The notes under the pieces were generated by a model, which saw only the letters and a program-made list of their open reading frames with translations, made no database searches and was not told the origin of the DNA. This document shows positions 29,801 through 33,644 of a stretch of DNA of 64,000 nucleotides, in pieces; position 1 is the first letter of the stretch; each line of letters begins with the position of its first letter. The position numbers and the translations under genes are program-made. This stretch comes from Chaetoceros tenuissimus (Eukaryota; Bacillariophyta; Thalassiosirophyceae; Chaetocerotales; Chaetocerotaceae): NCBI GenBank assembly GCA_021927905.1, contig BLLK01000022.1, positions 1,550,001 to 1,614,000 of the forward strand, read 5' to 3'.

Positions 29801-30149
29801 TTAAGGAAGTTCATCCTTCTTTGTCTTCTTTGTAGTCTTCTTCTTTGGAGCGGTCTTCTTCTTAGTTGCAGCCTTCTTTGCTGGTGTGGCAGCTTTTTTC
29901 TTTGGTGCAGTCTTCTTCGGAGCAGCTTTCTTCTTTGGTTCAGCTGCCTTTGCCTTTGACTTTCCACCCTTCAAAGCTCTTGTCCCACGCAAATTAGACT
30001 GTTGAAAAGAATGTAGTTTTTGTTTAGAATTCAATTGTAATATGATGAATAACAAAATCAATCAACGAAAATCTACACACCTGAGTAGCAATACTGGTAT
30101 GCACAAAGAGTGCAAAAAAGATTGCAATGATGGAAAGTACTTGCTTCAT
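29801..30149 (-). CDS. Secreted Lys-rich protein, silaffin-like (gene A)
   Basis: Two exons: 30081-30149 (23 codons) and 29801-29998, with an 82-nt GT-AG intron (29999-30080); 88 residues. Exon 1 encodes a clean signal peptide (MKQVLSIIAIFFALFVHTSIA). Exon 2 starts SNLRGTRAL, then KSKAKAAEPKKKAAPKK and further Ala/Pro/Lys units to the end, about 40% lysine overall. The R-x-L after NLRG and the many windows with five lysines in 12-14 residues recall silaffin precursors and their pentalysine clusters (known from Thalassiosira). Alone, the tail could be read as histone-H1-like, but a signal peptide argues against a nuclear role. The C-terminus is KKDELP, not a free KDEL. Confidence 0.65.
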
Positions 30150-30492
30150 TGTTTTGTTTAATTAAAATTCTAGTTGTGTTCCTCTTGTGGAATGAAATAT
30201 TATGAAAAGAAGGTTGATGTGAAAGATAATAGTTTTCGTTATTCATTGCCAAAAAGATGAGAAGCAACTCTGTGCCCAAACAAGAAATGAGAAGCACCAG
30301 AGCTAAATTTCATTCATTTCAGTTCTGGCACATCATCTTCAGGTGGGACTAACTCTCTCATGGAAAACGAAACAGCAACGTTCAAAATCAAAGCAACAAC
30401 AGAACAACGAAACAACATCAATTGAATCAACGAACCTCTGCTAGACCCTCAATAGGCTAATACTACTACTACTACTAATAGCAACAAACAAG
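30150..30492. promoter_or_regulatory. Divergent intergenic region
   Basis: 343 bp between Lys-rich gene A (minus) and the borealin-like gene (plus). It ends in an ACT trinucleotide run (30462-30476) just before the borealin-like ATG. Confidence 0.4.
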
Positions 30493-31248
30493 ATGCCAAG
30501 CACAAGAAGTACAAGACGAGCGGCAACACGCACCAACACGAAACGAACCATTCTTTCGGCACTCGACGAGAATGCTCCACTCACATCGACAGACCTCAAA
30601 CTAACCAACAACGACAGCTTACCAAACCTCGACATTCTACAATCATCATCTATACAGTCCATCCTATCCGATATCAAATCAAACATTACAGCGAATCAAG
30701 AAGCACTCGAAATTCAAGCGGCGGAAATTTCCAAAAAGACTCAAGCTGAATTCTTTATCGGGATGATGAAACTTGATAAGAAAATCAAACACATGACCAT
30801 CAAGGAATTCAATCAGCAGTTTGAAACGGATATTATTCAAGACTTTTCAAGTATTCAAATATCCACGCAGCCAGTGAGAAGTATGCCACTCAACAAGAGA
30901 GATTTCAAAGCTTTGGAAACGCCTGTTCGACAAATGGCCAGAGGTAAATTTGCTCCTACGCCAGGTACCATTTTACGTACCGTGAAAAAGGGTGAAGCGG
31001 TCTTTTCCATCAATGGATCTCCAGTAGATCAAAAGGAGGAGGGTGATTTGATTGCGACTGTGAGTAAAAAGCGCAGAGGGAATAATGAAGAGGCTGTTGG
31101 GTTTGATATTATGATTGATGGACAGTCTATTAATTTGAGTGATGAGACTACCATGCAGTATTTGACTCCTGCCATGAAGAATGAAGCTAAAGATCAGTTG
31201 AATGTTTTGAAGGATCAATTGAGTAAGCTTCTTAGTCACTTGGATTAG
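30493..31248 (+). CDS. Borealin-like chromosomal passenger complex subunit
   Basis: 251 residues, single exon. The start is basic and Ser/Thr/Arg-rich (MPSTRSTRRAATRTNTKR), followed by a helical region. The segment QAEFFIGMMKLDKKIKHMTIKEF resembles the borealin helix that binds survivin and INCENP. APTPGTILRTVKKGE and VFSINGSPV match the C-terminal borealin pattern TPxxxRxxxxGE...SxxGSP. The C-terminus (about 205-251) could be the dimerisation region. Borealin targets the Aurora B complex to centromeres in mitosis. The call rests on these motifs, not on a search. It sits between Lys-rich genes A and B on the opposite strand. Confidence 0.55.
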   Translation: MPSTRSTRRAATRTNTKRTILSALDENAPLTSTDLKLTNNDSLPNLDILQSSSIQSILSDIKSNITANQEALEIQAAEISKKTQAEFFIGMMKLDKKIKHMTIKEFNQQFETDIIQDFSSIQISTQPVRSMPLNKRDFKALETPVRQMARGKFAPTPGTILRTVKKGEAVFSINGSPVDQKEEGDLIATVSKKRRGNNEEAVGFDIMIDGQSINLSDETTMQYLTPAMKNEAKDQLNVLKDQLSKLLSHLD

Positions 31249-31623
31249 AGGAATAAGAAGGAGGAATTAGGAGGACAAGGAAGATGACGATGGACAGAGA
31301 AGAGCGAGGCGAAAAATGAAAGGGGAACAAAGAAAAGAATGCAAAAGAACAATACTGTTAGGAAGTCAAAGGAATTCACGATGTATTTGGAATCATCGTG
31401 ATTATTACAAAACAAACTCAAGAATAATTATTATTACGATCAAACCTTCTTTTACTTTCTAAAATGTGATTCAAGCGTACCAAACCTTTGCTTCTCATGC
31501 CAGCTTTTAGTTTCCGTCAGAACATCCCATGCCTGCTCTTCTTTGAACAGAGGTTTTTGTAATTTTAGTTTCCATCAGAACATCCCATGCCTGCTCTTCT
31601 TTGAACAGAGGTTTTTGTTCTTC
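31249..31623. repeat. Intergenic region with a 58-bp tandem duplication
   Basis: Two copies of TTTTAGTTTCC(G/A)TCAGAACATC and what follows lie head to tail, about 31505-31560 and 31563-31618, with period 58 and one clear mismatch. They sit just past the stop of Lys-rich gene B, probably in its 3' UTR. The rest holds no gene. Confidence 0.75.
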
Positions 31624-32128
31624 TTAGTGTTTGCTCTTTTTCTTCTTCTTATCCTTCTTCTTCGCAGTACTCTTCTTCGCAGCAGGTTTCTTGCTTTTCT
31701 TCTTTTTCTCTTTCTTCTCCTTCTTCTTAGACTTTTTGCTAGACTTTGGCTCACCAGTGACACTCTCCCATGCTCCTGTCAGAGCTCTAGAAACTGTACA
31801 CATGACACCACAGTCGTCCTCATTACCTTCACTTAACTGAAATTTACCCGAGGAGGTTTCGTCTACAGGAGGTAGCTTTGCTGCCACAGAAGCTGCATTG
31901 TTATCATCTGGCAAAGTGTGCTCTACTTCACGAGATAGAGCCTCAGAAGCTTCATCTGTCCCACGCAAATTACCTGAAGCAGATGCAGCCTGAGAAGCAA
32001 AAGATACGATTTGGTCAGATCATCTTATGAATAAAGCTACTTCGTACAATTTGGACGACACAGTCCTTCCTTATCTTCACAGCCATGCTAGATAGCATCA
32101 AGGTAGAGAGACCCTTTTTCTTCACCAT
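31624..32128 (-). CDS. Secreted Lys-rich protein, silaffin-like (gene B)
   Basis: Proposed exons are 32081-32128 (16 codons, MVKKKGLSTLMLSSMA) and 31624-31989, with a 91-nt GT-AG intron (31990-32080); 137 residues. After splicing the leader reads into AASASGNLRGTDEAS, so a short signal peptide ends just before the shared NLRG. The middle is acidic (EVEHTLPDDN) and includes KFQLSEGNEDDCGVMCTVSR, a two-Cys motif shared with gene C. The last 40 residues are almost all Lys and Ser (KSSKKSKKKEKKEKKKKS). An acidic propeptide followed by a polycationic, phosphorylatable tail is silaffin-like. The GTGAAG donor is weaker than usual, so the exon 1 boundary needs transcript support. Confidence 0.6.
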
Positions 32129-32686
32129 CGTGTGTCGTTGCAAGTAAATCAAAATATTTACATTTGTATTTATTATGAAAGAAAGAACCCCAATAGTAGA
32201 CAACACTTGAATTAGAATTTTTTTGCTTGACAATAGGGTTCGGCTCATCTTTTGGTGTTCTCTTTTTCATTCAAAGGAGAAACCCAACAAACTGAAAAAT
32301 AACCATTAGTCTTGAAAGAATGAATAGTAGAAAATATTGTACGTATAATCACAACGAAAGAGAGAATATTATGATCAAATGTATTATTAGTTATAAGAAA
32401 GATGATAAGGTAAAATCAATCAAGCGAGAATCATTCAACCACCTTTTCTATATTAATTAATTTTCATTCAAACATGTAAATTTATGCAGATTGAAGACTG
32501 TATGAAAGTGTTCGTTCAGCTAGTGTATTAGATACATATCAATGTATTTTCATCACGAGAATCACCCTTCAATTTCATCTTACAATGCAAGAATCAAGGA
32601 AAAAGTGAGTTTTGTAATCGTCATATCGAAACCTCTAGCTATATAACATTGCCATACATACCTTCTTTTGAAGCTGCTGCTTACAT
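32129..32686. other. Intergenic stretch
   Basis: 558 bp between Lys-rich genes B and C, very AT-rich, no gene supported. It should hold the promoter of gene B and the 3' UTR of gene C. Confidence 0.4.
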
Positions 32687-33103
32687 TTACTCACGAGTCT
32701 TCTTCTTTGGCGCAGTCTTCTTCTTTGGAGCGGCTTTCTTCTTTGGAGCGGCTTTCTTCTTTGGAGCAGCGGCTTTTTTCTTTGGAGCAGCGGCTTTTTT
32801 CTTTGGATCAGCAGCTTTCTTTGCAGCCATTTCCCATTCTTTCAGAGATATTGATACGCTACAAATGATACCACAGGCATCTTTGTCATCTCGGCTAACT
32901 TGAAAGACTTCAGAGGGAGTATTACCTGTTTCTTGTCTCACCCCACGCAAATTTCCTGCATATACAGTCGAAGATGCAATGCAGTTAGAGCATAAACATC
33001 ATGAATTGACTTTTACGATTACAATTCATCTTACCTCAAGTATCATGCTACGAAGCAACAACAGAGCAAAGAGCGCAGAACCAGTCGAAAATCCTGTCTT
33101 CAT
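32687..33103 (-). CDS. Secreted Lys-rich protein, silaffin-like (gene C)
   Basis: Exon 2 (32687-32955) reads NLRGVRQETG, then EVFQVSRDDKDACGIICSVS (the motif of gene B), then KKAADPKKKAAAPKKKAA repeats to KTRE. Exon 1 begins at 33103 and encodes MKTGFSTGSALFALLLLR, a signal peptide. The canonical donor (after 33035) would give a 23-codon exon as in gene A, but then the phase does not fit the NLRG frame. A weaker GTAGCA donor after 33052 does fit and gives 106 residues. So either that donor is used or one base has been lost. A strong GTGAGT donor overlaps the stop, so a further 3' exon is possible. The tail DNA is an 18-21-bp repeat. Confidence 0.55.
32697..32830. repeat. 18-21-bp coding repeat in Lys-rich gene C
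   Basis: Units of TTCTTTGGAGC(G/A)GC with a variable T-rich end repeat about six times. On the minus strand each encodes A(A)PKKKA. Unit length varies by whole codons, as expected for slippage under frame constraint. Confidence 0.8.
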
Positions 33104-33644
33104 CCTTCTTTTAAGTAAATATTTATTGTAAGAAGAGCTTACTCTAAGGAATTCCCTTCAAATAATGCTGTGAAGAATATATGAAGTCCTCATACATTCT
33201 AAGTAATTCAGGCAAATTTATCAGGGCTTCTCTTTTCTATTTGGTATGTTTTGTAGCTAGGCCATTTACTGACACCATGAGAATTCTTTCCCTTGACGAG
33301 TTCTCAAAAATCTACCAACCTAAAAACAGCCAACAGTGGATTTTCTCAAACGCCGCATGATTCGTTGCATCTATTGCTTTTTTGAAAATAATTGTTTCTA
33401 ATTTTGGTGTTCTCAATTCAAACGAGAAACCCAAACTGCATAATATAACCGTTGGAGTCAATCTTCAAATCTTTGACAAATTTAGTTTTGGCGCGTCTTC
33501 AGTTTCATTTTTCTTGACGGATCGTGAAGAATCGTGATCAACTCTATCACACTGTGCAAAATCATACACCATCACTTTCATCAGAGATCATAGTTGAACT
33601 CTAGCACGCTCTAACCGAACTACTAGATACTGAAAGAGAATACA
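33104..33644. promoter_or_regulatory. Divergent intergenic region
   Basis: 541 bp between the start of Lys-rich gene C (minus) and the F-box/ankyrin gene (plus). No gene is supported; both promoters are expected. Confidence 0.4.

Follow-up and report, generated by a model that had tools for sequence, protein, structure and literature searches.

A small cluster of lysine-tailed, possibly secreted genes in the diatom Chaetoceros tenuissimus, one with a tail related to histone H1

Diatom silica-associated proteins share little sequence, and their origin is an open question. Silaffins are rich in serine and phosphorylated, and screens for them use a serine threshold of about 18% Ser. In the passages of PMC5501833, PMC4557024 and PMC9650480 from which we took the silaffin criteria, candidates are recognised by a signal peptide together with repeated KXXK motifs (X = S or G) 1 to 6 residues apart (PMC5501833), a pentalysine cluster is defined as 5 interspaced lysines within 12 to 14 amino acids (PMC5501833, PMC9650480), and the lysines of cingulins (CinW2, CinY2) are arranged as K(X)nK, with X being S or G (PMC9650480). 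According to sections of PMC4557024 and PMC3820600, silica can be precipitated in vitro by poly-L-lysine and by oligomers of lysine. Here we describe three genes with lysine-rich tails, designated A, B and C, from a stretch of 64,000 nucleotides of the Chaetoceros tenuissimus genome (contig BLLK01000022.1, positions 1,550,001 to 1,614,000; hereafter the window, to which all coordinates refer), and compare them with the silaffins and silaffin-like proteins (SFLPs) of Thalassiosira pseudonana and Cylindrotheca fusiformis, the cingulins, and the linker histone H1 of the same genome. The genome searched comprised 41,027,912 bases in 68 contigs, with the window located on the contig that we call C16.

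The three loci are real and all lie on the minus strand, at the coordinates and with the NLRG motif and lysine tail ascribed to each of them in a first-pass annotation. A and B can each be spliced in frame from a signal-like first exon to a second exon with NLRG at or near its start and the tail behind it, B and C are related to each other well beyond chance, and A shares ancestry with H1 in its tail region. Our preferred reading, in which we place slightly less than even confidence, is that A, B and C form a small local family of secreted proteins with polycationic C-terminal tails; for A and, less firmly, for B, it is the signal-like exon 1 and the in-frame intron that argue for a secreted polycation.

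Intron candidates were GT/GC..AG pairs with a length of 35 nt or more that connect an ATG further upstream with the frame of NLRG and have their acceptor before NLRG. Several of them stay in frame, and the splice models of A and B were picked by hand among these for site quality. Gene A (30149-29801) has 6 such options from the ATG at 30149. In the model adopted, exon 1 (30081..30149) encodes the signal-like peptide MKQVLSIIAIFFALFVHTSIATQ, the 82-nt phase 0 intron (29999..30080; CAG|GTGTGT...CAACAG) ends at the acceptor TTTTCAACAG|TCT, and exon 2 (29801..29998) encodes SNLRGTRAL-KGGKSKAKAAEP-lysine tail-DELP up to the stop, with the NLRG codons AATTTGCGTGGG at 29984..29995. Exon 2 of A lacks a Met, which excludes an AUG-started nuclear product from this exon alone. 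The chain of A closes on KKDELP (29801-29815), so that the letters KDEL of the endoplasmic reticulum (ER) retention signal stand one residue short of the C-terminus and are therefore probably not active. For gene B (32128-31624), 10 in-frame options start from the ATG at 32128; the chosen model consists of exon 1 (32081..32128; MVKKKGLSTLMLSSMA), a 91-nt phase 0 intron (31990..32080; GCT|GTGAAG...TCTCAG) with the acceptor TTTGCTTCTCAG|GCT, and exon 2 (31624..31989), which encodes NLRG (codons at 31960..31971), an acidic linker, the core FQLS...CGVMCTVS..L..AWE and a K/S/E-rich tail. The exon drawing proposed in the first pass for A and B is thus borne out by in-frame GT-AG introns, and these look ordinary: in four H1 genes of the same genome, introns placed by means of the peptides measure about 93-114 nt and have the donors AAG|GTGAGT or AAG|GTAAGT. 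The internal Met residues of B and C occur only within or after the core. When exon 2 of B was modelled with AlphaFold from the single sequence, the mean pLDDT was 56.8, too low for a structure search, with one helix (65-81) over the core.

Signal-peptide scores were compared with those of 449 ATG-initiated open reading frames (ORFs) of the window, among which the exon 1 ORFs of A and C are included in their read-through form and B is entered from the start at 32248. A scores 7.06, with a predicted cut after TSIA and the strongly hydrophobic core VLSIIAIFFAL; 9 of the 449 ORFs score as high and only 1 is equally hydrophobic as well. B scores 7.27, from the start at 32128 only, with a cut after AASA (7 ORFs as high, 6 of them equally hydrophobic). 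The heuristic score for an ER signal is high for A and B, and the value for C hangs on a weak donor: it is 9.11 through TTC|GTAGCA, with a cut after NLRG (1 and 0 ORFs), and 2.66 for the frameshifted product (93 and 29 ORFs). The starts of the Borealin-like neighbour and of H1, used as negative examples, score -2.3 and -5.44. Plastid targeting of A, B and C was set aside by the ASAFAP rule, since the residue after each predicted cleavage site is not Phe.

Kinship among the loci was assessed for 13 pairs of segments, each against 200 dinucleotide shuffles. For B and C, the core DNA scores 33 (shuffle maximum 25), a block upstream of the genes scores 49 (maximum 36) and the junction of acceptor and NLRG scores 32 (maximum 30), none of these values being reached in 200 shuffles. 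The upstream block spans 32250..32311 in B, where it ends just before the upstream ATG at 32248, and 33402..33459 in C. In the core, FQLS...DDCGVMCTVSRALTGAWE of B aligns with FQVS...DACGIICSVSISLKEWE of C, both conforming to the pattern CGxxC...S..L..WE, of which A has no counterpart. On the strength of the core, upstream and junction scores, B and C are taken to be tandem paralogues. Around TAGCATG, their first exons are identical at 21 of 38 positions, and the best window, at another offset, reaches 23 (1 of 1000 shuffles); the exon 1 alignment suggested there is not secure. A is probably kin to the family through its exon start, since it shares with B the block TAATTTGCGTGGGACA (16 of 16 bases), which, allowing at most 1 mismatch, occurs in A and B only within the 41.03 Mb searched (1 match for the reversed-pattern control) and whose score was reached by none of 200 shuffles. 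The shorter pattern AATTTGCGTGGNRY has 4 genome matches, namely A, B, C and one in antisense orientation; this fourth match, AATTTGCGTGG on contig C38, was rejected as a family member, being located within an unrelated 556-aa ORF. Segments downstream of the genes gave scores reached by 10, 3 and 15 of 200 shuffles, the 3 being the borderline pair of A with C, and three comparisons of core with downstream sequence were at chance level (175, 194 and 200 of 200 shuffles). The single design attributed to all three genes in the first pass is thus right only in part, the core being confined to B and C.

In searches of the genome at E ≤ 10, with counts that are lower bounds, the signal exon of A, that of C and the tail of B each matched only itself; the non-tail part of B found B only and that of C found C and, at E 0.03, B. 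None of the three proteins matched a Pfam or NCBIfam family at the curated cut-off. Together with the lack of any further copy, this agrees with the earlier description of an undescribed family, within this genome. A scan of IMG/VR with the part of B exon 2 that runs from TDEAS up to the tail found no relative, searches of the PDB with the mature parts of A and B returned nothing of note (best E 0.94), and in the open-access library searched we found no report on NLRG in diatoms, and PMC5501833 alone on silaffin-like proteins in Chaetoceros genomes.

The three tails, too, are unlike in kind, and an H1-type lysine/alanine/proline C-terminal tail of common descent was found in A only. The related part of A exon 2 (29816..29947), recognised by both DNA and protein comparison, matches the last H1 exon over 123 nt at 85% identity (E 1.9e-31). 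A ends in ...KKAATKKKTAPKKKTTKKTKK-DELP and an H1 of C16 in ...KKAATKKKTAPKKKTTKKTKK; the likeness ends with the stop codon of H1, past which the sequences are unrelated. H1 identity was established by PF00538 (55.2 bits on a C16 H1), which has eight genome places above its cut-off and, in 14 control genomes, a sole match (Escherichia coli), below it. The A tail DNA retrieved 15 matches including the query itself. Of the 14 others, 8 fall in H1 genes, of which C16 and C14 carry two each, every gene being matched once in each of two exons, and 3 at one H1-type locus on C34. The remaining matches, 1 on C32 and 2 on C48, are lysine-rich frames that run antisense to longer ones (551, 359 and 487 codons) and were rejected both as family members and as H1; the long frames at these places (C32:2812649, C48:397925, C48:303847) encode related proteins of a single family, marked by FFFGA-type repeats, two of the three being much alike. 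The H1 genes themselves form two oppositely oriented pairs (at 259 kb and 324 kb on C16, and at 525 kb and 552 kb on C14). In protein searches (E ≤ 10), the A tail matched, besides itself, the tails of four H1 proteins at E 2.8e-5 to 6.3e-5 and, at E 0.875, C. Identical runs of 21 residues with H1 of C16 and 18 residues with H1 of C14 were reached by 3 and 17 of 2000 block shuffles, respectively, in which the structure of the lysine runs was kept. Of the last 22 codons, A shares 19 and 17 with the two C16 genes (H1_C16a and H1_C16b) and 13 with C14; among the H1 genes, the values are 20 for the C16 pair, 16 for C16a with C14 and 22 for the C14 pair. This pattern supports the view that A received its tail from an H1 tail exon, by copying or gene conversion, once the H1 lines of C16 and C14 had separated, the direction from H1 to A being suggested by H1 as the multi-copy partner with a known domain. 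A differs from H1 in its hydrophobic exon 1, in the extra C-terminal DELP and in lacking the winged helix, PF00538 having no match in A, B or C at E ≤ 1. Of the histone-like appearance noted earlier for all tails, that of A reflects an actual relationship, and the likeness of B and C to H1 is not above chance. An H1 origin of all three tails was rejected, the longest run of B with H1 being 4 residues. In C, runs of 23 and 18 residues were reached by 226 and 1292 of 2000 shuffles, with agreement at 10 or 9 of 16 codons; the PKKKAA repeats of C (18/21-bp units) are inseparable from chance resemblance to H1.

Gene C does not fit the exon 1 to exon 2 junction drawn for it in the first pass. Its putative exon 1 (33035..33103; MKTGFSTGSALFALLLLRSMILE) ends at the strong donor GAG|GTAAGA, and exon 2 after GCAG (32687..32955) encodes NLRG (codons at 32942..32953), the core FQVS...CGIICSVS..L..WE and the PKKKAA repeats. 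Between this donor and NLRG, AG dinucleotides end at 33030, 33010 and 32956; the former two give introns shorter than 35 nt, and the third (GCAG) shifts the frame, so that translation by hand yields 28 residues ending in EEICVG. The options that stay open from the ATG at 33103 are CTG|GTTCTG, TTC|GTAGCA and GTA|GCATGA, with three more from other ATGs, and all of these in-frame donors are weak. In the B-C junction alignment, the B acceptor TCTCAG stands opposite TCTTCG in C. The frame failure and this CG opposite AG imply that C is broken at the acceptor, mis-assembled or heterozygous there, or spliced from a weak donor; as assembled, it is probably broken, mis-sequenced or heterozygous at this site. 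Heterozygosity of C. tenuissimus NIES-3715 is given as 1.56% in the portion of PMC8613185 that deals with it, so one allele may differ.

These features of C also speak for the alternative that the loci are decaying or non-functional, that is, low-complexity ORFs with chance signal-like exons and C as a pseudogene. The low-complexity tails, open in other frames and on the opposite strand, and the suboptimal donor of B point in the same direction. However, two of the three genes, A and B, hold their frame across the intron, the upstream and core likeness of B and C exceeds that of shuffles, and the signal exon of A is strongly hydrophobic. We regard decay of the whole cluster as unlikely.

Several further observations weigh against a family of secreted polycations. 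C has no in-frame splicing with a strong donor. The homology of A with B comprises 16 bases, the upstream region of A matches neither that of B nor that of C (128 and 149 of 200 shuffles) and the A-C junction score was reached by 5 of 200 shuffles. The start of B is ambiguous between 32128 and 32248: the exon 1 frame extends without a stop as far as 32266, and the ATG at 32248, which lies in this frame, may start B 40 residues earlier, and the hydrophobic core from 32128 is weak to modest, with LSTIGVLSFII from 32248 being the stronger stretch (2.31 versus 1.47). The signal-peptide scores themselves are heuristic, being based on a von Heijne matrix and Kyte-Doolittle hydropathy. The plus strand across the C tail is likewise open, over 123 codons, and the lysine frames of the three places on C32 and C48 are each antisense to a longer one. 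Finally, the codon identity of A and H1 (19 of 21 codons at equal residues, P 0.01 with pooled codon usage) is only moderately beyond the codon-usage null.

A further alternative holds that the genes encode biosilica proteins of the silaffin or cingulin type, which enter the ER, undergo RXL processing and lysine modification, and are incorporated into the frustule. Like silaffins and SFLPs, the products are predicted to be secretory and rich in lysine, and A presents, after its signal-like exon and in this order, RAL, KGGK and one strict pentalysine cluster, the 13-mer KGGKSKAKAAEPK, the only one among the three genes, which makes A the strongest case for the first-pass view; RXL and KXXK occur in 8% and 4% of residue shuffles of A, respectively. 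B contains RAL and KSSK. On the other side, half of the shuffles of A (50%) contain a strict pentalysine, RXL appears by chance in 8-14% of shuffles, the RAL of B sits within the core rather than after the signal peptide, and C has neither RXL nor KXXK. Repeated KXXK with X = S/G was found in none of the three, A having one KGGK and B one KSSK, and none is serine-rich (Ser 3.0%, 12.8% and 5.6% in A, B and C), A and C being serine-poor. Under the loose pentalysine rule, the nuclear H1 control has 34 windows, compared with 14, 21 and 10 in A, B and C. The lysines of the cluster are mostly arranged in KK/KKK runs split by A/P/T or S/E, unlike those of cingulins, with which the proteins share a predicted signal peptide and lysine-enriched regions, and the tail of A, unlike silaffins, is related to H1; these comparisons with silaffins were made by criteria only. 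Given the lack of repeated KXXK, the low serine content and a pentalysine frequent among shuffles, we do not grant silaffin membership. That the genes encode biosilica proteins of the silaffin or cingulin type is, in our view, unlikely.

If the preferred reading of a secreted polycation family is correct, a claim supported for A and, less firmly, for B, exon 1 would direct the protein to the ER, cleavage of the signal peptide would take place near NLRG, and the destination of the mature lysine-rich chain would be the silica deposition vesicle or the cell surface. There, judging from charge only, the tail may bind polyanions such as silica, phosphorylated proteins or acidic wall polysaccharide. 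Silica binding by A, B and C is chemically plausible from their charge, as the precipitation of silica by poly-L-lysine and lysine oligomers makes a similar action possible; to silica as the main ligand we would assign perhaps a third of the confidence given to the family as a whole. A narrower form, in which the proteins are silica-independent antimicrobial or adhesive polycations, is favoured by the net charges of the mature chains (+23, +12 and +17 for A, B and C), the small size and the signal-like exon, but no family match over the cut-off accompanies it, and we consider it improbable. Least likely of all is that the tails act on chromatin in H1-like nuclear proteins with the signal exon unused, since, despite the kinship of the A tail with that of H1, PF00538 is unmatched, exon 2 of A has no Met, and exon 1 of A is strongly hydrophobic and spliced in frame.

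The surroundings of the cluster gave no visible silica-related hint. Between A and B lies a Borealin-like gene on the plus strand (30493-31248), which matches PF10512 with 26.1 bits (cut-off 19.5); its PF10444 match is below the cut-off, and the gene is divergent relative to A. The outer neighbours encode a Kelch-repeat and an ankyrin-repeat protein. Directly behind the stop codon of B, two tandem copies (98% alike) of a 58-bp unit occupy 31505-31618, with no further copy found in the genome; the idea that the unit is a decayed B/C core was rejected, as the scores were reached by 175 and 200 of 200 shuffles. The G+C content of the window is 35-42% per 2 kb, mostly 37-39%.

As to how such genes might have formed, A would be a chimera of a B-like NLRG start and a tail that an H1 gene on the same contig supplied with its last exon, devoid of the winged helix, and the C tail would have been enlarged through repeat expansion. 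The fuller proposition, that the diatom captured an H1 tail exon behind a signal exon and turned it into an extranuclear polycation organising the wall or silica, is a long shot that we put forward as a speculation. Lysine counts alone cannot tell silaffins from histone tails in silaffin screens. A secreted gene whose polycation can be traced to an H1 exon on the same contig would represent one concrete route of origin, and, if the capture proposition is true, lysine-tail biosilica proteins can arise by capture of a chromatin tail rather than by descent from silaffins.

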